64,000 nt of DNA from Pseudomonas lini (lineage in GTDB: Bacteria; Pseudomonadota; Gammaproteobacteria; Pseudomonadales; Pseudomonadaceae), in NCBI RefSeq assembly GCF_964063345.1, contig NZ_OZ061318.1, positions 3,286,001 to 3,350,000 of the forward strand, read 5' to 3'. Below are positions 2,799 through 64,000 of this stretch, one piece after another. The translations under genes were made by a program, and so were the position numbers. The notes below the pieces were generated by a model that was not told the DNA's origin, did no database searches, and saw only the letters and a program-made list of their open reading frames with translations. Every line of letters begins with the position of its first letter. Positions within the stretch are counted from its first letter, which is position 1.

Positions 2799-5672
2799 AT
2801 GACCTTCAGCTCCGACCTGTCGGGCCCCTCTGTGGAGCCCCGGGTTATCCGCAAACAGTACGCCATGGAGATGGCGGTCGAACGCACGCGTCTGCTGTAC
2901 CAGGGTTCGCTGTTGCCTACGCTGTTCATGCTGATCAACGGTCTGGTGTGCGCCGGCTTGCTCTGGAGCCCGCAGCGTTACTTCATGGTCAGCGTCTGGC
3001 TGATCTGGCTATTGTCGCTGGTGGCATTGCGGGTGATTCAAGTCGCGGCCTTCGATTCGGCGATTCCCAATCGTCAGGCGCATCCGGTCTGGCGTCGTAT
3101 GTTCTTCCTCGGCTCGGCGATGACAGGCCTGACCCTGGCCGGTGCCGGCATCGCGTTGGTGCCCGCTGATAATTTCATGCAACAAGCCTGGGTATTCGGC
3201 CTGATCGGCGCCGCGGCACTCTCGGCCAGCGTTGCTTATGCCGTCAGCCTGCCGGCTTTTCTATCCTTTACCTTGCCCTGTCTGTTGCCGGCCATCGGCT
3301 ATCTGTTCTGGGGCGGGGATGAGCAGGAACAGGGCTGGGGCTGGTTCGGGCTGATTTTGCTGGGCTCGCTGAGCGTGGTTGCCTGGCAGGTCAATCGGCT
3401 GATCGATCAGGGGTTGCTGCGGCGTTTTCAAAATCAGGCCCTGATCGAGCATTTGCAGCAGGCGCAAAGTCGTAGTGATCAGCTCAATCAGGAGCTGGGC
3501 AAGGAAATCGACCAGCGTCGCCGCGCCGAAGACGAATTACGTGAAACTCAGGTCGACCTCGAAAACCGGGTCGCACAACGCAGTCTGGAGCTGGACGCCG
3601 CCAACCACGCCTTGAGCAAAAGCGAAGCGCGGCTGGCGCTGGCATTGAAGGCGAGCGAACTCGGGTTGTGGGACTGGAACCTGCAGACAGACGAAGTTCA
3701 TCACACGCAACTCCAGGAGCTGTTTGGTCTGGAGCCAGAATACGTGACGGCGATGCTCCGCCACCTCAAGCCCAGGCTGCACCCCGACGACTTGCCATCG
3801 CTGAAGCGGGCGCTGGTCGAGCATTTGAAGGGGCGTAGCGAGGATTATCAGATCGAGTATCGGGTGCGGCATGGCGATGGCCATTGGGTCTGGATCGAGG
3901 ACCGTGGTCGAGCGGTTGAGCGCAGTGAAAACGGCCGGGTGATCCGCATGGTCGGCACCCGTCGCGACATCAGCGCCAGCAAGGGTCTGGAGCAACAGCG
4001 ACAACTGGCGGCGACGGTGTTTGAGGCCGCCAGCGAAGGCATTGTAATTCTGGACCCGAATTACGCGCTGATTGCCGTCAATCAGGCCTTCAGTCGGGTT
4101 ACCGGCTATGACATCGATGACATGCTCGGACGCAACGTGGTCGAGTTGCCCTGCAGCCGCGATGCCCGCCGGCATTACGCGACGATTCGTCAGGCGCTGG
4201 AGCAGGACGGTAGCTGGCAGGGCGAGCTGGTCGAAGCCCGCAAGAATGGCGAGCTGTATCCGCAATGGCTGCAACTGAATGCCGTGCGCGATTCGCGGGG
4301 AAATGTGAGTCATATCGTCGGCTTCTTCGCCGATCTGTCCGCTCGGCGTGAATCCGAAGAACGTATGCGCTACCTCGCTCATTACGATGAACTCACGGGG
4401 CTGGCCAACCGTTCGTTGTTCCGCGAACGGCTGCACGAGGCTCATCAGCGTGGGCGCCAGGGCGGTCGTCGCAGTCTGGCGTTACTGCACATCAATCTGG
4501 ACCGTTTCAAGCTGCTCAACGATAGCCTCGGCCACGAAATTGCCGATGAGTTGTTACAAAAAATGGCCCGACGGTTGGTCAATGCACTGCCGGAAGCGGA
4601 CACTATCGCCCGGCTGTCCGGCGATGAGTTTGCAGTGCTGTTCGATACCTACGGCAACTTGTCGAGCCTGGCGCGGGTGGCGACCCGATTGTCGACCAAA
4701 CTGCGTTTGCCGCTCACCGTCGAGGGGCATGAATTGGTGATGAGCGCGTCCATGGGCATCAGCCTGTTGCCGGACACCGCGCGGGATATTTCCGCGCTGG
4801 TCAGCCAGTCGAACATGGCCATGCAGCATGCCAAACACTTGGGCGGCAACAACTTCCAGTTCTATACAGACAGCCTGCAAGCCAGCACGCTCGAGCGTTT
4901 GCAGCTCGAGAACCAGTTGCGCAAAGCCATCGAAGAAAAGCAGCTGAAAGTGTTTTATCAACCGAAACTCTGCCTCGCCACCGGCCGGCTGAACGCCGCC
5001 GAGGCGTTGGTACGCTGGAATCACCCAATCCTGGGTCAGGTACCGCCGGGGGATTTCATCGGTCTGGCCGAGGAAACCGGGCTGATCGGCGCTATAGGCG
5101 AGTTCGTTTTGCGCCAGGCCTGTTGGCAAGCGTGTGAGTGGCAGCGTCAGGGACTAGAGCCGATTCGGGTCTCGGTCAACCTGTCGGTGCATCAGTTGCG
5201 TCAGGGAAAACTGGTCAGCCTGGTGCGTCAGGTGCTGGAGGAAACCGGCCTGGCGCCGCATTACCTGGAACTGGAGCTCACCGAGAGCCAGTTGTTGGAC
5301 AGTGTCGAGCACATCATTGCGACCTTCCAGCAGTTGCGCGACCTTGGAGTGAAACTGGCCATCGACGACTTTGGCACTGGCTATTCGTCCTTGAGCTATC
5401 TCAAGCGCATCCCCGTGGACTACGTGAAAATCGATCAGGCATTTATCCGCGGGCTGGGGGAGAGCAGTGAGGATGCGGCGATCACCCGGGCGATCATCGC
5501 CATGGCGCATGGTTTGTCGCTGAAAGTGGTGGCTGAAGGCGTCGAGCGACCGGAACAGCTGGAATTTCTGAAAGCCGAGCGCTGCGATGAAGTGCAGGGC
5601 TATTGGGTTAGCCGTCCGGTCGAGGCCGCCGACCTGGCCGAGCTTTTACGTCGCGACGCCAATCCTTTGTAG
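2799..5672 (+). CDS. membrane-anchored PAS-GGDEF-EAL cyclic-di-GMP protein
   Basis: This 957-residue protein has an N-terminal block of about six membrane segments (roughly residues 25-190). A coiled coil follows (about 205-270), then two PAS domains (about 275-400 and 405-510), a GGDEF domain and a C-terminal EAL domain. The GGDEF signature reads SGDEF (RLSGDEFAVL), so cyclase activity is uncertain. The phosphodiesterase residues look intact: EALVRW, the VNLS Asn, LELTES, DDFGTGYS, VKID, AEGVE and QGY. The likely output is c-di-GMP hydrolysis controlled by a PAS or membrane signal. Start 2799 gives MTFSSDL; in-frame starts at 2733 and 2769 are possible. From memory the PAO1 counterpart is PA5442, also beside uvrD. 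Confidence 0.93.
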   Translation: MTFSSDLSGPSVEPRVIRKQYAMEMAVERTRLLYQGSLLPTLFMLINGLVCAGLLWSPQRYFMVSVWLIWLLSLVALRVIQVAAFDSAIPNRQAHPVWRRMFFLGSAMTGLTLAGAGIALVPADNFMQQAWVFGLIGAAALSASVAYAVSLPAFLSFTLPCLLPAIGYLFWGGDEQEQGWGWFGLILLGSLSVVAWQVNRLIDQGLLRRFQNQALIEHLQQAQSRSDQLNQELGKEIDQRRRAEDELRETQVDLENRVAQRSLELDAANHALSKSEARLALALKASELGLWDWNLQTDEVHHTQLQELFGLEPEYVTAMLRHLKPRLHPDDLPSLKRALVEHLKGRSEDYQIEYRVRHGDGHWVWIEDRGRAVERSENGRVIRMVGTRRDISASKGLEQQRQLAATVFEAASEGIVILDPNYALIAVNQAFSRVTGYDIDDMLGRNVVELPCSRDARRHYATIRQALEQDGSWQGELVEARKNGELYPQWLQLNAVRDSRGNVSHIVGFFADLSARRESEERMRYLAHYDELTGLANRSLFRERLHEAHQRGRQGGRRSLALLHINLDRFKLLNDSLGHEIADELLQKMARRLVNALPEADTIARLSGDEFAVLFDTYGNLSSLARVATRLSTKLRLPLTVEGHELVMSASMGISLLPDTARDISALVSQSNMAMQHAKHLGGNNFQFYTDSLQASTLERLQLENQLRKAIEEKQLKVFYQPKLCLATGRLNAAEALVRWNHPILGQVPPGDFIGLAEETGLIGAIGEFVLRQACWQACEWQRQGLEPIRVSVNLSVHQLRQGKLVSLVRQVLEETGLAPHYLELELTESQLLDSVEHIIATFQQLRDLGVKLAIDDFGTGYSSLSYLKRIPVDYVKIDQAFIRGLGESSEDAAITRAIIAMAHGLSLKVVAEGVERPEQLEFLKAERCDEVQGYWVSRPVEAADLAELLRRDANPL

Positions 5673-5675
5673 CCC

Positions 5676-5778
5676 GCTGCCGAAGGCAGCGTTCGGCTGC
5701 AACGCAGTCGTAAACCTGCTTACCGGACTTTTCCTGTTAAACCGCATCCACCTTCACAACGGCTTCGCAGCCGAACGC
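5676..5778. repeat. hairpin and 12-bp inverted repeat after the GGDEF-EAL gene
   Basis: Three bases after the stop codon, GCTGCC-GAA-GGCAGC (5676-5690) forms a compact hairpin without a T run. GCGTTCGGCTGC (5689-5700) is matched by its exact inverse at 5767-5778. The pattern resembles a decayed intergenic repeat pair. The rest of the gap up to rccR holds only the palindrome at 5882. Confidence 0.6.
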
Positions 5779-53566: not shown

Positions 53567-53842
53567 ATGCGTAAACCAGAACTCGCCGCTGCAATCGCGG
53601 AAAAAGCAGACCTCACCAAAGAACAGGCCAACCGCGTTCTCAACGCCGTTCTCGAAGAAATCACCGGCGCTCTGCACCGCAAAGACAGCGTCACGCTGGT
53701 GGGCTTCGGGACCTTCCTGCAACGCCATCGCGGTGCACGTACGGGCAAAAACCCGCAGACCGGTGAGCCAGTCAAAATCAAGGCCAGCAACACTGTTGCG
53801 TTCAAGCCAGGCAAATCGTTGAAAGACAGCGTTAATCCATAA
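53567..53842 (+). CDS. hupA: HU-family DNA-binding protein
   Basis: This 91-residue histone-like nucleoid protein has the N-terminal helices MRKPELAAAIAEKADLTKEQA, the central VTLVGFGTFLQRHRGARTGKNPQTGE (the HU signature with the DNA-inserting Pro region) and KPGKSLKDSVNP at the end. AAGGGG precedes the ATG. A terminator-like hairpin follows. The symbol follows common use for the copy near the rubredoxin genes; hupA versus hupB is not distinguished by sequence alone. Confidence 0.93.
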   Translation: MRKPELAAAIAEKADLTKEQANRVLNAVLEEITGALHRKDSVTLVGFGTFLQRHRGARTGKNPQTGEPVKIKASNTVAFKPGKSLKDSVNP

Positions 53843-53997: not shown

Positions 53998-55155
53998 CTA
54001 CTGCGTTGTCTCTGGATCCGGAGCCGGAATGACCACACTCGCCCAACTGGCTGTACGTTTGCGTTGTGTCAGAGCACGCAATGCTTCTGCGTCAGGTTCG
54101 CCTTTTTTCGTGAATTTGACAGGTGCCAAAACATAGAGCATCACCTTTTCCTCGTCGGGGATCGTCTCTTGTTCGGTTTTCGTATCCCAGGCTTTATCCA
54201 CGGCCACGAAAGCATCCACTTCATCTGGCCAGGCCAGGTTGGCATACATGGCATCGGAACGACGAATCAAGAAGCCTTCCGACAAGGGGCAATCATCGAA
54301 CGTGTGGCGAGCGAGCAGAGACAGCAACTCAACCGGAAAAACCCAAGGACTGTGCGGGGTAAAACCTTGCTGCGTAAGAGGCCAGTCGCCAGGCAAGCAT
54401 ACGAATAATTCCGTATGAGGACTTTCGGCAAAAAGTCCGATGGTGAAGAGCAACTTGAACTTGTTTTTGCCGTCAATACAGCTGATACGCAGCTCCAGAC
54501 CCTCTTCATTAGTGAAGGGACTCAGTTGCGCGGGTAAAACCCAGCCAGCGGTGTTGTGCACGAAAGTGACTATAGAACCACCAAATTCCTCGGGCTGGCT
54601 TTCAACAACGTCCATGATACTGACCGCCCCCGATTTTCTTAAGGTGGACGCAATATCTGTAAATCCCCAAGTATTGGCGATGTCCAATGGCGCGGTATTC
54701 AGCCTGGTGTGCAGTCGATTGATGTTGGCATGGTGTTCTATAAGAAGATTGACGACGTCCTCATGCCCAAAGGTAATCGCGTCAATCAGCGGGGTGGTTA
54801 TGCTGTTAGGCCACCCATCCACCAGAGCACCGGCCTCAAGAAACCATTGGCATGTTTGTAGATGTCCATTGCCAGCGGCTGCGGCAAGTGGCGTGCTATT
54901 GCCGGAACTGGCAGCAGGCTGGTCCAGCGCAATACCTAAAGACACCAATAAGCGGCAAATTTCGGTTTGACCCTGTTCGGCAGCCATGTGCAGCAGGGTC
55001 TCATGCCCATCAAGACCATACATGGGCAGGTGCAATAGAACGGAATTTTTCTCTAGGTGCTTTTTTAGTGAGGCTGCATTTCCCGACGCGATGTCTGCGT
55101 GAATGGCTAATAAAGTCTTGATGTTCTTTTCATAAATTTCTTCTGGGTTGTTCAT
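53998..55155 (-). CDS. ankyrin-repeat plus SUFU-like protein, predicted immunity protein of the Rhs toxin
   Basis: This 385-residue protein has an N-terminal ankyrin array (about residues 45-185; GHETLLHMAAEQGQTEICRLLVSLG, STPLAAAAGNGHLQTCQWFLEAG, TTPLIDAITFGHEDVVNLLIEH, TAPLDIANTWGFTDIASTL). Its C-terminal domain (about 190-370) resembles the suppressor-of-fused family in the segments FKLLFTIGLFAES, HTELFVCLPGDWPL and VFPVELLSLLARHTF. Both folds recur among polymorphic-toxin immunity proteins. The ATG directly follows the Rhs stop (TAAATG), so translation is coupled. No signal peptide is present, so it would act in the cytoplasm on the nuclease tip. The immunity role is inferred from position and fold. 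Confidence 0.8.
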   Translation of the reverse strand: MNNPEEIYEKNIKTLLAIHADIASGNAASLKKHLEKNSVLLHLPMYGLDGHETLLHMAAEQGQTEICRLLVSLGIALDQPAASSGNSTPLAAAAGNGHLQTCQWFLEAGALVDGWPNSITTPLIDAITFGHEDVVNLLIEHHANINRLHTRLNTAPLDIANTWGFTDIASTLRKSGAVSIMDVVESQPEEFGGSIVTFVHNTAGWVLPAQLSPFTNEEGLELRISCIDGKNKFKLLFTIGLFAESPHTELFVCLPGDWPLTQQGFTPHSPWVFPVELLSLLARHTFDDCPLSEGFLIRRSDAMYANLAWPDEVDAFVAVDKAWDTKTEQETIPDEEKVMLYVLAPVKFTKKGEPDAEALRALTQRKRTASWASVVIPAPDPETTQ

Positions 55156-58100
55156 TTAAAAAATACCTTTTGTCATTTGAGCACCCATTTTTTTCAATGC
55201 GTTTTGGACACTGGCCAGCCCGCCGACGTCCGCTTTCTGAAGTATTTCATTGACTTTTTTGGCGCTGGCTATCGAGTGATTCCCTCCACCATTTTGGGCC
55301 CAAGTGAAGTTGCGCGGGTCGTTGTTTAGGCCAATTTTGTGTTTGGCCAGAATTTTTTGCGAGTCGGTAATGTACTTTTGATTTTGAGCTTTCCAGCTTT
55401 TCGGAGCTTTTTCGCGGACGATATGATGGTAATGCGGCTTTACCATACCCTTAGGTGCAGGCCCCATCGCTCTCTTCTGTGAGGCGCTGAGTCGACAAAC
55501 TTCCCACCCCCACGGATCCACCCACCCAATCGGATTCGGTGCGTATTGATAGAGGTTAAATCCCCCCATCAACCCAATCGGATCCGGCGTCGTAAACCGC
55601 CCCACATCCGGATCGTAAAACCTGAACGTATTGAAATGCAGCCCCGTCTCCCGGTCCAGGTACTGCCCCTGAAACCGCAGGTTCTGCTCTTCGATGTAAT
55701 ACGGCTCGCGCACCTCTTCTAACGTGTTGCCCCACACCCGATAACTCGCCTGCCAGACGTTGTGGCCGTCCGCTTCGGTGAGTTGTTCCGGCAGGCCGTT
55801 GAGGTCATTGTGGTAATAGCGGATTTTTCGCAGCGGGCCGATACCATCGACGCGGGCCAGGGGTTCGTAACCGTCGTCTTCGTAGAGGTAAAGGCTGGTC
55901 TGTTGATGGCGATGTTCCTGCAACAGGCGCAGACCGTCCCAGGTGAAGCGGGTTTCACCGAGCGGGTAGCCGTTGGTGTCGTGCTCGGTTTTTTTAATGC
56001 GTCGACCCAGTGGGTCGTAGGTCATCCTGAGCACGCTGCCGTTTTCATTGCGCACTTCAATCAATCGGCTTTCGGCGTCGTAACCGAAGCGCTGCAGGCC
56101 CCGTTTAGCGCTGCGTTTTTCGATCATCCGGCCAAATGCGTCGTAGCGGTAACGCTTGTCTTGGTAGGTCAGCAGTTTGTTGTGTACCACCAGTCCGGCG
56201 CCGGGTTGTGGGCCGTCCAGCAGGTTGGCGGCGGCGTCGTAGGCGAAGGTTTCGCGCTGGCCGTGCAGGCTGTCCTGGCTGGCAATGATGCGGCCGGTGG
56301 CGTCGTAGTGCAGCAGTTGGCGATGTTGCGCGGCGGGTTGTTGGTCGAGTTTGCCGATCAGGTTGTCGGCGGGGTCATATTCGAAATGTTTCTGCACGGC
56401 TGCCGGCATCAGCGATGGCTGGCTGGTGTGTCGGCGCTGGCGTGAGCGTAAACGTCCGCAGCGGTCATATTCGCTGCGGGTGCTGATCTGGCCTTGGGTG
56501 CGCAGCACTTCGCGGTGCAGGCGATCGCGTTCGAAGTCGCTGATGACCTGGCCGTCGAGGTTGATCTGGTGCAGGTGGCCGCTGCCGTAATACAGGCGAT
56601 TGATCCAGCGGCGGTCGGGCAGTTGGGTCTGGATCAGGTTGCCGAGTTCGTCATAGTGATATTGCAGGCTGCCAGCCGCGCTTTGTTCTTCGAGCAATTG
56701 GCCGAGGGCATCGTAGGCGAAGCTCAGGGTTTGTGCGTTGGCGTGGTGGTCGGTAAAGGTGACGGCGGTGAGCTGGTCCAGTGGGTCGTAGGTGTAGTCG
56801 GTGCGGCCATCGTCGGTGATTTTGGCGATCAGCCGGCCGACGGCGTCGCGCTCCAGTCGATGAACGATGGGGGCCGGGGGCGTCTCGGGGACGATGGCCA
56901 AGCCGTTGCCGTAAGGCGCCGGAACAGCCGTTACCGCCGCGACGTTATCCAGCAGGTCATAGATGTAGCGCTTGGCGCTGCCATCCAGATCCTGTTGTTC
57001 GGTCAGCCGATCTCCCGCATCCCAGGCAAACCGATAACTTTCACCGTTCTCATTGGTCAGCGCTTGTAGCCGCCCATAGCTGTCATACCCGAACTGCACT
57101 TGCCGGCCGTGGGCGTCGGTGCGCTGACGCACCTGGCCGCGACGGTTGTGTTGATAGAGCGTGGTGTGCCCGGCCGGGTCGGTATAACCGGTCAATTGGC
57201 CGCTGACGTCGCGCTGATAGTGCTCGGTACGGCCGTCCGGCAATTGGCTGCTGAGCAACCGCCCTTGGGCGTCGTAGCTGAATTGGCTGCGCTCGCCGAG
57301 GGCATCAGTGATGGTTTGCAGATAGCCCCGGTTGTCGTAAGTGAACCGCGTCGGATAACCCGAGCAATCGATGTGTTCGACCAATTGGCCGAACGGGTTC
57401 CAGCGTAGCTTTTTGCTTTTACCGGTGGCGTCGATGATCTCGACGACCTGGCCGTGGGTGTCGTAGCGGTATCGGGTGATGTGGCCCAGCGGATCGGTTT
57501 CGGCGATGCAGTTGCCGCGCTGATCGTAGCGGTATTGCCAGCTATTGCCGGCGGCATCGGTTTCCACCAGCGGCAAGGCCCAGAGCTCCAGCCACAAGGT
57601 CGAGTCGCTGCGACCCAGCGGGTCGGTTTCGCCGATCAGATTGCCGGCGTCGTCGTAGCTGTATTCGTAGTGCCCACCCTGCGGGTCGGTGGCGCTGAGC
57701 AATTGGCGCTCGTCGTTCCACTCGAACTGCCAGGTCTGGCCAAGGTTGTCGGTGTATTCGGTGATCTGGTGCTGGTTGTTCCAGCGTCGTGTACTAATGC
57801 GCTGCAAATCATCGGTAATGCGCGTAACACCGGCGTCGAGGTCATAGTCGAACTGGTAAGCATCGCCCTCGTCGGTCCAGTGCCGGACCACGCGCCATTC
57901 TTTTTCCTCGATGTAAGCCCATTCATAGAAGCAACGCAGCCCCGTGGGCAACTGGTGCTCGACCATCCGCTGTCCGGCGTCGTAACTGAAGCGCCGTTGC
58001 ACCTGGCCGGTGGCGTCACGCACTTCGGTCAGGTTGCCTGACTGATCGTAGCCATAACTCACCAACACTTCGCGGTGTTGGTCAGGGTAGACCCGCTCCA

Positions 58101-59514
58101 CCTGACTGACCCGTGTCTGAAGGTAGGTCAATTCCACCTGAACCAAGTCAAAGGTGTCGCGCAGTTTTACAAGGCGTCCGACGTCGTCATAGTCGAGATG
58201 GATGCGGTTGTCGTTGCGGTCACCCAATTGATCAAGGCGCAGCAGCGCGGTATTGCCCGGCGTTGGATTGAACAAGCGGTACACACCGTCATCGCTTTCA
58301 ATCAGCAACTGCCCATTAACGTGCCGCCGGACACTCAGCCCTTCACCCGCGCTGAACACCGCGCCGCCCAACGGAATCGAACCCATGTCGATGCGCCGGC
58401 CCTGTTCATCGGTGTAGACCAGCGTTTCACCGCCCTCCGGATGAGGCAGGATTTCAACCCGCACCTCGTAGGACACGCTCCAACCCGCCCCGAACAAGCC
58501 GTCGCGACGCTCGTCACGGCTGTTGTAGAAGCGCTGCCAATCTATCGGCAGCACCCCCGGCAACACGAAATCCAGCTCTTCGTCACCGCCCAACACCTTG
58601 GCCCCGGTGGCGGCGTGCACCGGGTTCGACGAGCCCATGGCGGCGTTGGCCATGGCGCCCATCGCGCTGCTGACGGCCATCGACGTCGCGCCACCGACCA
58701 GCATGCACGGCAATTTGCTGAAGAACTTGCCTTTGCCGCCCTTGAGCATCAGCAACGCGGTGACCGCCAGGCCCACGCCCGGGGTCTTGCCGCTGCGGAT
58801 CTCGCGCACCACCACCGAACCGCCGCCAATGGTCACATTGGAGGAAATCAGCCCGGACGATACGACCTTGGCATCGCAGGTGCTGCGATCGCCGCTGCGC
58901 ACGGCGGGCTGGCCGTTGATGGTGACTTTGTCCGAGCCCTCGGCCAGAAACTGCGGCGGCATCGGCGGATGCTTCATGCAGACGAGCAGGTCCAGCGGCT
59001 TGGGCACGGCGCCAGGTGCCGGGGTGGCAACGGTGGGGCGCCACATCTGCGAGAAGAAGCTCTCGGCCATGTCGAGGTAACTGGCTTCGGCTTCCGGCTC
59101 GGGTATTTCCAGCTCGGTGCCGGCCGGCGCGACATGGGACGGGATCGCCCCGGCGGCCCGGGCGGCGGGAATGTTGTTGGTGAGGGTGTTGGTGGAGCCG
59201 GTGAGAATGTTCGCCTGTACCGTGGGCGGAAACAGCGAATTACTGAAACTCTCGCATAAATTGCTCAGGCCCTTGTCGGCCCCGGTCTTGCTCATGGCGA
59301 GGCCGACGATCGTGCCCACCACCAAGCCGAGCACGACGCAACCCAACCCGCCGGTGACGACCGTGATGCCCGTGGCCGCCACCACGGCGGCGGTGGCCAG
59401 CGCGGTGATCGCGATGTTGGCTGCCACCTCGAGCACGCCGCCGAGGATGTCGGCCATCATCGAGGTGTGGTTGAGTGCATCACCCAGCCGGGCGGCCCAG
59501 AGCGCGTCAGACAT
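55156..59514 (-). CDS. T6SS Rhs effector: prePAAR, PAAR, Rhs cage, HNH/AHH-like nuclease tip
   Basis: The 1452-residue protein begins with a prePAAR motif AARLGDALNH (residues 7-16, pattern AARxxDxxxH). Hydrophobic helices (about 30-75) and a PAAR spike domain (about 95-245; VTINGQPAVRSGD, GSVVVRE) follow, then a second hydrophobic stretch (about 248-295). RHS/YD repeats (about 300-1310) form the cage. The core ends with the conserved DPIGLMGGFNLYQYAPN and GWVDPWGW. The variable tip (about 1338-1452) contains HYHHIV and GLNNDPRNF with GGGNHS, an HNH/AHH nuclease-like pattern. It starts 12 bp after the Eag gene. Base composition near the tip looks lower in GC, as is usual for exchangeable toxin ends. 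Confidence 0.93.
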   Translation of the reverse strand: MSDALWAARLGDALNHTSMMADILGGVLEVAANIAITALATAAVVAATGITVVTGGLGCVVLGLVVGTIVGLAMSKTGADKGLSNLCESFSNSLFPPTVQANILTGSTNTLTNNIPAARAAGAIPSHVAPAGTELEIPEPEAEASYLDMAESFFSQMWRPTVATPAPGAVPKPLDLLVCMKHPPMPPQFLAEGSDKVTINGQPAVRSGDRSTCDAKVVSSGLISSNVTIGGGSVVVREIRSGKTPGVGLAVTALLMLKGGKGKFFSKLPCMLVGGATSMAVSSAMGAMANAAMGSSNPVHAATGAKVLGGDEELDFVLPGVLPIDWQRFYNSRDERRDGLFGAGWSVSYEVRVEILPHPEGGETLVYTDEQGRRIDMGSIPLGGAVFSAGEGLSVRRHVNGQLLIESDDGVYRLFNPTPGNTALLRLDQLGDRNDNRIHLDYDDVGRLVKLRDTFDLVQVELTYLQTRVSQVERVYPDQHREVLVSYGYDQSGNLTEVRDATGQVQRRFSYDAGQRMVEHQLPTGLRCFYEWAYIEEKEWRVVRHWTDEGDAYQFDYDLDAGVTRITDDLQRISTRRWNNQHQITEYTDNLGQTWQFEWNDERQLLSATDPQGGHYEYSYDDAGNLIGETDPLGRSDSTLWLELWALPLVETDAAGNSWQYRYDQRGNCIAETDPLGHITRYRYDTHGQVVEIIDATGKSKKLRWNPFGQLVEHIDCSGYPTRFTYDNRGYLQTITDALGERSQFSYDAQGRLLSSQLPDGRTEHYQRDVSGQLTGYTDPAGHTTLYQHNRRGQVRQRTDAHGRQVQFGYDSYGRLQALTNENGESYRFAWDAGDRLTEQQDLDGSAKRYIYDLLDNVAAVTAVPAPYGNGLAIVPETPPAPIVHRLERDAVGRLIAKITDDGRTDYTYDPLDQLTAVTFTDHHANAQTLSFAYDALGQLLEEQSAAGSLQYHYDELGNLIQTQLPDRRWINRLYYGSGHLHQINLDGQVISDFERDRLHREVLRTQGQISTRSEYDRCGRLRSRQRRHTSQPSLMPAAVQKHFEYDPADNLIGKLDQQPAAQHRQLLHYDATGRIIASQDSLHGQRETFAYDAAANLLDGPQPGAGLVVHNKLLTYQDKRYRYDAFGRMIEKRSAKRGLQRFGYDAESRLIEVRNENGSVLRMTYDPLGRRIKKTEHDTNGYPLGETRFTWDGLRLLQEHRHQQTSLYLYEDDGYEPLARVDGIGPLRKIRYYHNDLNGLPEQLTEADGHNVWQASYRVWGNTLEEVREPYYIEEQNLRFQGQYLDRETGLHFNTFRFYDPDVGRFTTPDPIGLMGGFNLYQYAPNPIGWVDPWGWEVCRLSASQKRAMGPAPKGMVKPHYHHIVREKAPKSWKAQNQKYITDSQKILAKHKIGLNNDPRNFTWAQNGGGNHSIASAKKVNEILQKADVGGLASVQNALKKMGAQMTKGIF

Positions 59515-59526
59515 GCAAGGTGCTCA

Positions 59527-59961
59527 TCAGGCCGTAACGTCGAACAATAGCGAACTCTTGATAGTCGCCCAATGCGCGGCTTCGGCATCGCCGAGTTTTT
59601 CGGCCTTCACGTAGCTCAGGGCGAGCATTTTGCGGGTGCCGGGCAACACCAGTGCCAACTGGTATTGGAAGACTTTGTCGTTGCCCTTGTTGAACTGGCT
59701 GCGCAACTCGATGCCTTCGACTTGCTGGCTGGCGCCCAGACGCACGGCGACGCCCGGTTGAAAACGCAAGTCTTGCACCTGCTTTTCCAGGCGCTTGAGC
59801 TGGTCGTCGAAGTTGCTTTGCAAGGTTTCGCCCTCGGCCAGCAAGCTGCGGCTGACAATCAGCGACGTGCCCAGTTCAGGGAACTTGAGGATGTTGATCG
59901 ACGCGTCTTGCAGTTCGCCTGCCGGCAGTTGGAACTGGAATTCATTGATTCGGTAAGTCAT
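59527..59961 (-). CDS. eagR: Eag chaperone (DUF1795/DcrB-like)
   Basis: This 144-residue protein has the DUF1795 fold (MTYRINEFQFQLPAGELQDASINIL at the start; LVLPGTRKMLALSYVKAE near the end). Eag proteins bind the prePAAR transmembrane segments of T6SS effectors and stabilise them before secretion. It lies between vgrG and a prePAAR-Rhs gene, with 18 and 12 bp gaps, as expected. Start 59961 (MTYRINEF) was preferred to a Met three codons upstream. Confidence 0.93.
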   Translation of the reverse strand: MTYRINEFQFQLPAGELQDASINILKFPELGTSLIVSRSLLAEGETLQSNFDDQLKRLEKQVQDLRFQPGVAVRLGASQQVEGIELRSQFNKGNDKVFQYQLALVLPGTRKMLALSYVKAEKLGDAEAAHWATIKSSLLFDVTA

Positions 59962-59979
59962 GGAACACAAATCTCGTGA

Positions 59980-61917
59980 TTAGCCCTTGGGCTTGGGAAA
60001 CGCGGCATTGATGTTGGCGTCGATACTGGCCTTGATGCCCTGGCCATCAGGCGTGGCGCCAGCGCCGCCGCCATTGTTCAGATGCAGCACGCCGCCGGTG
60101 TTGAACTCGGCATCACCGCTGGCATAGAAGCTGATTTGCACGCCGGTCAGGTTGATCTGGCCGCTGGCATTGAGCTCCAGGATGCTTTCACCACAGACCA
60201 GCCGCAGGTTCTCACCCACTTCAATGACGTAGCTCTGGCTGATGCTGTCGGTCTTGCGCTGACCCACCGAAAGAATGTCTTCCTGTTTGACGATACGCAG
60301 GCGGTTGTTGCCGATGGTCACCGTCTCGTTATGCCCGATGCTCTTGTTGCGGTCGTGGCCCACCGAGTGGCTTTCATCCACCTCGACCACGATGTCCTGA
60401 TTGCGCTCGGCATGGATGTACAGTTGCTCGGCGCCTTTCTTGTCTTCCATGCGGATTTCGTTGAAGTTCGCCGGTGTGCCGCCCTTGCTCGAACGGCTTT
60501 TCATGCCGCTTTGGGTGGCATTTTCCGGCAAGTCGTAGGGCACGGTTTGTTCAGCGTTGTAGACGCGGCCGGTGATGATTGGCCGGTCCGGATCGCCTTC
60601 GAGGAAGCTGACGATCACTTCCTGGCCGATCCGTGGGATCTGCATCGAGCCCCAGTTTTTTCCGGCCCAGGATTGCGACACACGTATCCAGCAGGAGCTG
60701 TTTTCGTTGGACTGGTCGTGGCGGTCCCAATAGAAGTGCACCTTCACCCGGCCGAATTGGTCGGTCCAGATTTCCTCGCCCTTGGGGCCAACCACCAGTG
60801 CGGTCTGCGGGCCTTTGACGATAGGCCGATGGGTGTTGGGCAGGGGGCGGTAGCTTTGTTGCGCGTCGATGCAGGTCAGGCTGCTTTCGAACTGCGCCGA
60901 AGCGCCAGCGCCGCCGCTTTCCCCGCTTTCCTGGGAAATGTAGTAACGGGCGCCGACGATCAGGTATTCGCGGTTCTGGTCCTGGCGGCTGAAGCCGGTG
61001 AGGCTGAACAAATGACCCGACCCCAGGCCCCGGGCGTTGCCGGCCAACTCGACCTGTTCGTGCAGGGTCTGCAAGGCTTCGATGCGGGTGCGGGCGTAAT
61101 GTTCGCCGTCTGCACTTTGCACATAGGTGCCCGGATAGTCGTACAGCGGATAGTCGCCTGCGGTGTGCGGACGCGGCATGGCCGAGCGCACGTCAATTCG
61201 CGCGCTGGGGCGCTGAAAGTCGTAGTCGTTGAGTTCCAGTGAGCCCGGCTGGACTTCCTGGGCCAGGTGCCAATCGTGAATATGATCGCGTTCGCGCTGC
61301 TGTTCATTCTTCGGGTAGTAGGGCACCGAAGCATAGCCGGGCGCGCCGGTGTGAGCACCGTAAGCATCGGCCAACACCAGCACGTGACGACCCTGTTCAT
61401 GGCGGAAGAAGTAGTAGATCCCTTCCTGCTCCATCAGGCGGCTGACGAAATCGAAACTGGTTTCGCGATACTGCACGCAGTATTCCCACTCGCGATAGGG
61501 CCGGCTCAGGGCATCTTCGAAATCGGAAAAACCCAGGTCGCGAAAAACCTGTTTGATGATCTGCGGGATGGTCAGGTTCTGGAAAATCCGGCAATCGGAG
61601 GTGCGGGTCAGCAGCCATAGCCAGGGCCGCAGCGTGGCCTGGTAACTGGCGAACTGGCCCTGGTCGACGTTCTGGCTGCAACGGGCAACGATGCCATGGA
61701 AATAGCGCTCGCCACCGCCGTCCAGTTGCAGGCTCAGGCACATGGGTTTGCCCAGCAACTGGTTGAGGTCGATGGCGTTGTCCAGCGAGTGCAATTGCAG
61801 CTCATAGTTGAACAGCCGCCCCAGCTCTTCGCCGCCGCCCATGTCCTTGAGCAACAGCACATCCGGCCCCAGGGGGCTGGTGATTTTTGCCAGGCGTGAG
61901 AGTTGCTTGAATAGCAT
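59980..61917 (-). CDS. vgrG: T6SS spike protein VgrG (TssI)
   Basis: This 645-residue protein has the usual VgrG layout: a gp27-like N-terminal part (LFNYELQLHS, CVQYRETSFDFVSRLMEQEGIYYFF), the gp5 OB domain around GRVKVHFYWDRHDQ and SWAGKNWGSMQIPRIGQEVIVSFLEGDPDRPIITGRVYN, and a C-terminal beta-helix ending near residue 640. No added effector domain is present, so its cargo is the PAAR-Rhs protein encoded downstream. The four genes vgrG, eagR, rhs and the immunity gene form an apparent operon. Confidence 0.97.
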   Translation of the reverse strand: MLFKQLSRLAKITSPLGPDVLLLKDMGGGEELGRLFNYELQLHSLDNAIDLNQLLGKPMCLSLQLDGGGERYFHGIVARCSQNVDQGQFASYQATLRPWLWLLTRTSDCRIFQNLTIPQIIKQVFRDLGFSDFEDALSRPYREWEYCVQYRETSFDFVSRLMEQEGIYYFFRHEQGRHVLVLADAYGAHTGAPGYASVPYYPKNEQQRERDHIHDWHLAQEVQPGSLELNDYDFQRPSARIDVRSAMPRPHTAGDYPLYDYPGTYVQSADGEHYARTRIEALQTLHEQVELAGNARGLGSGHLFSLTGFSRQDQNREYLIVGARYYISQESGESGGAGASAQFESSLTCIDAQQSYRPLPNTHRPIVKGPQTALVVGPKGEEIWTDQFGRVKVHFYWDRHDQSNENSSCWIRVSQSWAGKNWGSMQIPRIGQEVIVSFLEGDPDRPIITGRVYNAEQTVPYDLPENATQSGMKSRSSKGGTPANFNEIRMEDKKGAEQLYIHAERNQDIVVEVDESHSVGHDRNKSIGHNETVTIGNNRLRIVKQEDILSVGQRKTDSISQSYVIEVGENLRLVCGESILELNASGQINLTGVQISFYASGDAEFNTGGVLHLNNGGGAGATPDGQGIKASIDANINAAFPKPKG

Positions 61918-62089: not shown

Positions 62090-64000
62090 CTATGCGGCGT
62101 CGCTGAAGTCGTAGTGCAATTCGTTATCCCGGGCGCTGATCCGCACGCCTGCCAGCGCTTTGCCTTCGAGCATGCGGGTGAGGAACTCGCGGCTCATGTC
62201 CGGCAGCAGGCTGTTGGTCAGGATGGTGTCGATCATTCGCCCACCGCTTTCGGTTTCGGTGCAGCGGGAGACGATCAGGTCGATCACCGCGTCGTCGTAA
62301 TCGAAGGCCACTTTATGGGTGTTCTCCACGCGCTTTTTGATGCGGTTGAGTTGCAGGCGGGTAATGGCCTTGAGCATCTCGTCGCTGAGCGGGTAGTACG
62401 GAATGGTCACCAGGCGGCCCAGCAATGCCGGCGGGAAAATCTCCAGCAGCGGCTGGCGCAAGGCCTTGGCGATCTCTTCGGGCTCGGGCACGTTTTGCGG
62501 GTCTTTGCAGACCCGGGCAATCAACTCGGTGCCAGCGTTGGTGGTCAGCAGGATCAAGGTGTTCTTGAAGTCGATCACCCGGCCTTCGCCGTCCTCCATC
62601 ACGCCTTTGTCGAACACCTGGAAGAAGATCTCATGCACATCCGGGTGGGCTTTTTCCACCTCGTCCAGCAGCACCACGCTGTACGGTTTGCGCCGCACGG
62701 CTTCGGTCAGCACGCCGCCTTCGCCATAACCGATATAGCCCGGTGGCGCGCCCTTGAGTGTGGACACGGTGTGGGCTTCCTGGAATTCGCTCATGTTGAT
62801 GGTGATGACGTTCTGCTCACCGCCGTACATGGCTTCGGCCAAAGCCAGGGCGGTTTCGGTCTTGCCCACGCCGGAGGTGCCCGCGAGCATGAACACGCCA
62901 ATTGGTTTGCTCGGGTTGTCGAGGCCGGCGCGGGAGGTCTGGATGCGCTTGGCGATCATCTGCAAGGCATGGTCCTGGCCGATGATGCGTTTTTTCAGGT
63001 GCTGGTCGAGGTTGAGCACGGTTTCCAGTTCGTTACGGGCCATGCGGCCCACCGGAATCCCGGTCCAGTCAGCGACCACCGAGGCCACGGCCTGATAATC
63101 GACCGTCGGCAGAATCAGCGGGGTTTCACCTTGCAGGGCGGTCAGGCGCTGTTGCAGGTCCACCAGTTTCTCGCGCAGGGCGTGGCTGTCGTTACTGCCA
63201 ACGTCGCTGTCTACCACGCCGACGCTTTCGCGCAGGGTGGCGCGGGTGGCGAGCAGTTCGTCCACCAGGGTTTTCTCTTCGGCCCAGCGGCTTTCGAGTT
63301 CGGCCAGGCGTTCGCGCTCGGCGGCCAGCAGGTTTTCACTGTTGCTCTGACGGGCGCCGATGACGATGCCGATGGCGTGCTCGCGGGCGATGATTTGCAG
63401 TTCGGTTTCCAACGCCTCGATGCGGCGACGGCTGTCGTCCACTTCGGCCGGCACGGCGTGCAGGCTGATGGCGACCCGGGCGCAAGCGGTGTCCAGCAGG
63501 CTCACGGATTTGTCCGGCAACTGGCGCGCGGGGATGTAGCGATGGGAGAGCTTGACCGAAGCTTCCAGGGCTTCGTCGAGGATCTGCACCTGATGGTGTT
63601 TTTCCATGGTCGAGGCCACGCCGCGCATCATCAGCAGCGCCTTGTCTTCGGACGGCTCGGCGACTTGCACCACCTGGAAACGGCGGGTCAGGGCCGGGTC
63701 TTTCTCGATATGCTTCTTGTACTCGGCCCAGGTCGTGGCGGCCACGGTGCGCAGGGTGCCCCGGGCCAGGGCCGGTTTGAGCAGGTTGGCCGCGTCCCCG
63801 GTGCCGGCGGCGCCACCGGCACCTACCAGCGTGTGGGCTTCGTCGATAAACAGGATGATCGGTTTTGGCGAGGCCTGGACGTCTTCGATGACCTGGCGCA
63901 GGCGCTGTTCGAATTCACCTTTCATGCTCGCGCCGGCCTGCAACAGGCCGACGTCGAGGCTGCGCAGTTCCACGTCCTTGAGCGCTGGCGGCACGTCACC
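62090..64000 (-). CDS. clpV: T6SS AAA+ ATPase ClpV (TssH), N-terminal part missing at window edge
   Basis: The last 636 codons of a ClpB/ClpV-type unfoldase are present; the frame is open to the right edge, so the N-domain and first Walker A lie outside. Visible parts: the rest of the first AAA module (ILFIDEAHTLVGAGG), the coiled-coil middle region (about 63200-63500), and the second AAA module with Walker A GTSGVGKTE, Walker B VLLDEVEKAHPD and sensor LLTTNAGTELI. The sequence around the first module (GDVPPALKDVELRSLDVGLLQAG) and the adjoining vgrG favour ClpV over ClpB. ClpV recycles the contracted TssBC sheath. Confidence 0.95.
   Translation of the reverse strand, partial: GDVPPALKDVELRSLDVGLLQAGASMKGEFEQRLRQVIEDVQASPKPIILFIDEAHTLVGAGGAAGTGDAANLLKPALARGTLRTVAATTWAEYKKHIEKDPALTRRFQVVQVAEPSEDKALLMMRGVASTMEKHHQVQILDEALEASVKLSHRYIPARQLPDKSVSLLDTACARVAISLHAVPAEVDDSRRRIEALETELQIIAREHAIGIVIGARQSNSENLLAAERERLAELESRWAEEKTLVDELLATRATLRESVGVVDSDVGSNDSHALREKLVDLQQRLTALQGETPLILPTVDYQAVASVVADWTGIPVGRMARNELETVLNLDQHLKKRIIGQDHALQMIAKRIQTSRAGLDNPSKPIGVFMLAGTSGVGKTETALALAEAMYGGEQNVITINMSEFQEAHTVSTLKGAPPGYIGYGEGGVLTEAVRRKPYSVVLLDEVEKAHPDVHEIFFQVFDKGVMEDGEGRVIDFKNTLILLTTNAGTELIARVCKDPQNVPEPEEIAKALRQPLLEIFPPALLGRLVTIPYYPLSDEMLKAITRLQLNRIKKRVENTHKVAFDYDDAVIDLIVSRCTETESGGRMIDTILTNSLLPDMSREFLTRMLEGKALAGVRISARDNELHYDFSDAA

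Follow-up and report, generated by a model that had tools for sequence, protein, structure and literature searches.

A candidate toxin-immunity pair of an AHH-like Rhs tip and an ankyrin-SUFU protein at a type VI secretion locus of Pseudomonas lini

Proteins with ankyrin repeats, SuFu-like domains, or both are described as immunity partners of AHH toxins. The passages of the 2012 survey PMC3482391 that bear on them list Imm-ank as a partner of Tox-AHH and report fusions of Imm-ank with SuFu-like domains in firmicutes. The same passages describe fusions of Imm-SuFu with ankyrin repeats and an association of Imm-SuFu with Tox-AHH, mention polyimmunity proteins that combine such domains, usually without an adjacent toxin gene, and print the AHH signature as N, H, H, Y. 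Ankyrin proteins are also cited as immunity to AHH toxins in an excerpt of PMC8285248. On the toxin side, part of PMC9990079 lists AHH DNase effectors of the T6SS and T4SS, e.g., Rhs2 (Acinetobacter baumannii), VP1415 (Vibrio parahaemolyticus), and Txe2 (Pseudomonas plecoglossicida).

The window is the whole stretch of 64,000 nucleotides of P. lini that was analyzed. The genome is 6.58 Mb in one contig, and the locus lies on the minus strand of the window (Table 1). The gene order on that strand is ClpV, VgrG, DcrB, PAAR/Rhs, and the partner gene. A family scan of ten proteins beyond ClpV assigned a protein family to nine of them and found genes for TssG, TssF, Hcp, VipB, VipA, TssA, TssK, and TssL/DotU. 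The locus is therefore the effector end of a T6SS cluster. It has what characterizes a T6SS PAAR-Rhs effector, i.e., a PAAR, an Rhs core, a VgrG, and a chaperone in an operon near such a cluster. The DcrB-family gene is taken to be the EagR-type chaperone, both in name and in role. The Rhs stop codon TAA (55156-55158) directly abuts the partner start codon ATG (55153-55155), and these coordinates confirm the direct start at TAAATG noted in a preliminary description of this DNA. The partner gene is faced by an ORF of the opposite strand (53567-53842, plus strand) that, by eye, resembles HU-type DNA-binding proteins. The ORF opposite it has its counterpart at locus L004, where an Rhs fragment intervenes and the distance from the partner is ~1.5 kb.

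Table 1. Positions of the locus features in the window
Feature	Position	Strand	Basis or remark
clpV-like T6SS ATPase	62090..64000	-	clipped by window end; 892 aa in genome
VgrG spike protein	59980..61917	-	Pfam Phage_GPD 2.8e-109
DcrB/EagR-type chaperone gene (presumed role)	59527..59970	-	Pfam DcrB 7.2e-20
PAAR-Rhs effector (putative), 1452 aa	55156..59514	-	Pfam RHS_repeat, RHS, DUF6531, PAAR_motif
PAAR motif, residues 175-219	58858..58992	-	Pfam PAAR_motif 3.6e-11
Rhs core end with DPIG (1311) and DPWG (1333), presumed self-cleavage segment	55507..55584	-	Rhs_assc_core 1.2e-25
Putative AHH-like nuclease tip, residues 1338-1452 (115 residues)	55159..55503	-	alignment, AF2, profile comparison
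HYHH motif, residues 1361-1364	55423..55434	-	H invariant at tip positions 24, 26, 27
N1402 of RNFTWA	55309..55311	-	invariant in 15 aligned tips
H1413 of GNHS, presumed metal ligand on HNH helix	55276..55278	-	invariant; aligns with second AHH His
Ankyrin-SUFU immunity candidate, 385 aa	53998..55155	-	ORF, Pfam, family matches
Ankyrin-repeat half, residues 1-180	54616..55155	-	
SUFU half, residues about 195-379	54019..54573	-	family matches, profile comparison, HMM match
Position equivalent to the L006 join, residues about 292-295	54271..54282	-	alignment

The locus most probably encodes an antibacterial effector delivered by the T6SS, together with the immunity protein cognate to it; the confidence in this reading is about 0.87. 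The DcrB/EagR-type chaperone would help to load the PAAR-capped Rhs shell, and the shell would ride on VgrG into a neighboring cell. The end segment of the shell (DPIG...DPWG), presumably the site of self-cleavage, would free the tip. The tip is predicted to adopt the beta-beta-alpha metal fold of an AHH-like nuclease and, once in the cytoplasm, would cut nucleic acid, with DNA as the most likely substrate. In the producer and in kin cells, the cytosolic ankyrin-SUFU protein would bind and block the tip, with specificity probably set by the ankyrin half together with the initial SUFU part.

The tip appears to be a divergent AHH-like domain (HNH/EndoVII) and is no curated AHH member. Compared with Pfam AHH (PF14412), the window tip scores 14.7 and 16.1 bits (E 0.012-0.031), below the gathering score of 22.3. 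Of the 11 tips in the alignment, 9 match AHH at E<=10, all of them sub-threshold and the best at 3.2e-4. Profile comparison of the tip family with 26 AHH domains, taken from other genomes in the window's order, gave 95.3% with hhalign (E 2.4e-8 for a single comparison) over 84 columns. The control comparisons gave 0.2% for the tip with SUFU and 0.6% for the partner with AHH. Genome searches with PF14412 and PF05076 found no match in the window's own genome.

Six residues are invariant across the 15 aligned tips: H24, H26, H27, N65, N71, and H76, which are residues 1361, 1363, 1364, 1402, 1408, and 1413 of the Rhs protein. RNFTW begins at Rhs residue 1401 and GNHS at 1411. Because of this invariance, the HYHH, N, and H residues are no chance pattern. 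The [AG]HH motif is absent from the 15 tips, which carry H[Y/R]HH instead (HYHH in the window tip). The N (N65) and the second His (H76) of the AHH signature are kept and invariant; in the hhalign alignment, the first helix His corresponds to a gap and the Tyr to Ala or Ser. The AF2 model of the tip (pLDDT 91.7, pTM 0.85) has a strand at 23-27 (PHYHH), a helix at 39-54, a strand at 66-70, and helices at 78-92 and 96-111, and the helix from 78 starts just past H76. The order of strand, helix, strand, and helix fits an HNH fold. A fold search with this model found no match among solved structures. The HNH/AHH-like nuclease tip of the preliminary description is thus upheld at the sequence level by the invariant residues and the family profile, but the window copy itself misses the Pfam cut-off.

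A tip with an HNH fold could also act on RNA or protein, with the partner still serving as the immunity protein. The substrate is unreadable from the motif alone because certain LXG toxin domains behaved as RNases in E. coli but are DNases in B. subtilis, according to an excerpt of PMC8321402. Such a target is nevertheless unlikely here. The five AHH rows in the listed part of PMC9990079 are all DNases, and the tip retains HH, N, and H, which argues for DNA as the substrate.

The partner is made up of an ankyrin-repeat half and a SUFU half. It matches Pfam ankyrin families down to 1.3e-17 and has both the ankyrin repeat profile and the solenoid fold; its fold-search lists are filled by matches to the ankyrin half. 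SUFU (PF05076) is matched by 20 of 23 aligned partner proteins at E<=10, the best at 7.3e-9. Profile comparison of the second half with SUFU reaches 90.5% with hhalign (E 1.4e-6), and an HMM of the SUFU half matches one of nine SUFU loci (9.2e-6). The window copy has no Pfam match to SUFU even at E<=10. The fusion of the two domains, originally suggested from the letters of this gene, therefore holds, with SUFU recognized in the family but not in the window copy. An ankyrin protein that is 34% identical to the partner and covers 92% of it is found on the 438 kb plasmids NZ_CP029094.1 and NZ_CP027170.1, labelled Pseudomonas paraeruginosa. A second, different SUFU protein is present at L088 (G083:C80), in a genome that also holds an ankyrin-SUFU gene.

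The tip and the partner are found together across genomes. A tip scan of genome contigs from 84,980 species gave 17 loci, and an ankyrin-SUFU gene adjoins the tip in all of them, as is characteristic of a cognate immunity gene. Sixteen of these genes are complete. The other, at L005, is clipped by the contig end 121 bases past the tip, and its first bases are like those of the window by eye. Two tips contain in-frame stops (L011 and L019), and the partner genes there are open. The pairing is no general feature of AHH genes, since 30 other AHH loci of the window's order (16 genomes) have no ankyrin or SUFU match within about 1500 bases.

Among 398 Pseudomonas genomes, the partner family is represented by at least 20 copies, spread over 18 genomes; scoring covered only a subset of the candidates in each genome, which makes the counts lower bounds. 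Eight copies directly follow a full-length open tip (window included), two a tip with an in-frame stop, and two a partial tip; one is a tandem second copy, and for seven no tip was found in the retrieved flank. The eight open tips lie in frames of 1455-1460 aa (six), 363 aa (one, at a contig edge), and 339 aa (one). Some tip-less copies are located behind Rhs genes with other ends or amid Rhs fragments, and three of the seven are divergent (L036) or partial (L037 and L038). The tip is present in at least 15 of the 398 genomes, with 11 strong and four distant matches, and all 11 strong matches adjoin a partner copy by coordinates. Partner copies without a tip, or behind interrupted or partial tips, fit immunity retained after toxin loss. 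Together with the adjacency, the persisting tip-less copies bear out the proposed toxin-immunity pair as far as can be judged from sequence. Locus L051 (G257, 3116-5741) has a tandem pair of ankyrin-SUFU genes behind one tip. At L044/L045 (G183), a long island where Rhs end fragments are mixed with small genes has two ankyrin-SUFU genes of different allelic types, one behind an interrupted tip and one tip-less.

The adjacency in 17 of 17 loci would be equally expected if the ankyrin-SUFU protein were a loading or targeting adaptor for the tip and not an immunity protein. This role is very improbable, however. A chaperone of the DcrB/EagR type is already encoded upstream, and 7 of 20 partner copies have no tip in the flank, with four more behind interrupted or partial tips (lower-bound counts). 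The gap between the partner and the opposite-strand ORF is only 155 bases, and there is therefore no space for another immunity gene there. Moreover, the same slot is filled otherwise after distant tips, by DUF4303 in the two that were scanned.

The four distant tips (L103-L106; G071, G068, G103, and G311) carry PHAHHIV, a true AHH motif, and the next gene in each case encodes about 180 residues. This gene is DUF4303 (PF14136) at L103 and L104 (8e-26 and 2.9e-23), and the neighbor genes at L105 and L106 resemble these by eye. For AHH-like Rhs tips, DUF4303 is thus a candidate family of immunity proteins.

The ankyrin-SUFU gene of L006, from P. zanjanensis, is a recombinant with its join at codon ~293, inside SUFU. 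The comparison piece starts 39 bases upstream of the tip; from there to partner codon ~294, the DNA of L006 and that of the window are 89.4% identical. From codon ~292, the L006 DNA is 99.0% identical to L016 of P. kilonensis over 1046 bases, a stretch that runs through the end of the partner gene and about 770 bases beyond. In windows of 40 columns, the L006 protein before the join is 70-98% identical to the window protein and 27-62% identical to L016; after the join, it is 97-100% identical to L016 and 34-50% identical to the window. Identity to the window tip is 92% for the tip of L006 and 54% for that of L016. The exchange in L006 left the tip, the ankyrin half, and the first SUFU part together. 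By eye, P0004, which groups 24 sequences, appears to be the L006 recombinant as well. In P. lini, L005 (1-6505) is an array of Rhs ends. The first is an L016-like tip with its partner, the next is an Rhs end that has been displaced and whose tip, by eye, is apparently a regular AHH, and the last is a window-like tip with a clipped partner gene. Two allelic tips are thus found in one strain.

Over 15 pairs, tip distance correlates with the distance of the ankyrin half (r 0.83) and of the two SUFU parts (0.63 and 0.42), values reached by 0, 0, and 2 of 2000 permutations. Without L006, the values are 0.81 for ankyrin and 0.58 and 0.61 for the SUFU parts; without L003, L004, and L006, they are 0.76, 0.48, and 0.49. 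The weak correlation of the last SUFU part owes much to L006. Linkage and descent alone yield correlation, and therefore only the contrast between ankyrin and SUFU is suggestive.

That contrast, with tip divergence best tracked by the ankyrin half, would be explained if inhibition came from this half alone. SUFU would then be a passenger or, in a polyimmunity protein, a further immunity domain directed at a different toxin. The exchange of the SUFU end in L006 would agree, and polyimmunity proteins joining Imm-Ank and SuFu appear in the passages of PMC3482391. Inhibition by ankyrin alone is still rather improbable. In the alignment of 23 proteins, SUFU is conserved to the same degree as ankyrin (mean majority-residue share 0.69 and 0.63 in the two SUFU parts vs. 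0.47-0.69 in the ankyrin segments), and the two-part gene follows the tip at every locus with a complete gene (16 of 17).

The partner may also be a two-part lock, although this is less likely than not. The ankyrin half and the first SUFU part would read the toxin, and the last third of SUFU would be exchangeable. Crossovers inside SUFU, along with the conserved Rhs core, would allow the toxin and the reading head to be swapped as one cassette, and the resident tail would be kept. If this is true, the two allelic tips of L005 would be non-cross-protecting specificities. To our knowledge, the toxin-recognizing domain of compound immunity proteins has rarely been established. The allelic pairs, the L006 recombinant, the two-tip L005, the tip-less copies, and the tips with DUF4303 neighbors form a natural test set. 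Which immunity domain recognizes the toxin is therefore directly testable.

The kind of system is already known, since the cited portions of the surveys cover Imm-ank with Tox-AHH as well as ankyrin-SuFu fusions. The initial suggestion of an unusual and possibly undescribed immunity architecture was too strong given the entries in PMC3482391. In open-licence PMC papers, no description was found of the Pseudomonas pair and its family, of ankyrin-SUFU as a dedicated T6SS immunity protein, or of recombinant partners. The particular pairing, which occurs in several species and is sometimes reshuffled inside the immunity gene, is new in detail.

Tox-AHH (PF14412) effectors share with the window an AHH-type domain in a T6SS effector and the HH, N, and H residues. 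The window tip differs in having H-[Y/R]-HH and not [AG]HH, in lacking the first helix His and the Tyr, and in scoring below the cut-off. Rhs2, VP1415, and Txe2 are set beside the window tip by their description in part of PMC9990079, not by sequence. The Imm-ank and Imm-SuFu proteins in the passages of PMC3482391 are like the partner in that both domains are fused and Imm-ank is paired with Tox-AHH. The fusion described there is from firmicutes, whereas the window fusion is the neighbor of one tip clade, mostly in Pseudomonas. The polyimmunity proteins described there are usually without an adjacent toxin gene, whereas the window fusion adjoins its tip. The DUF4303 proteins beside AHH-motif Rhs tips of Pseudomonas are encoded, like the partner, directly after a related tip. 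They are unrelated to the ankyrin-SUFU protein, and their tips have a true AHH where the window tip has HYHH.
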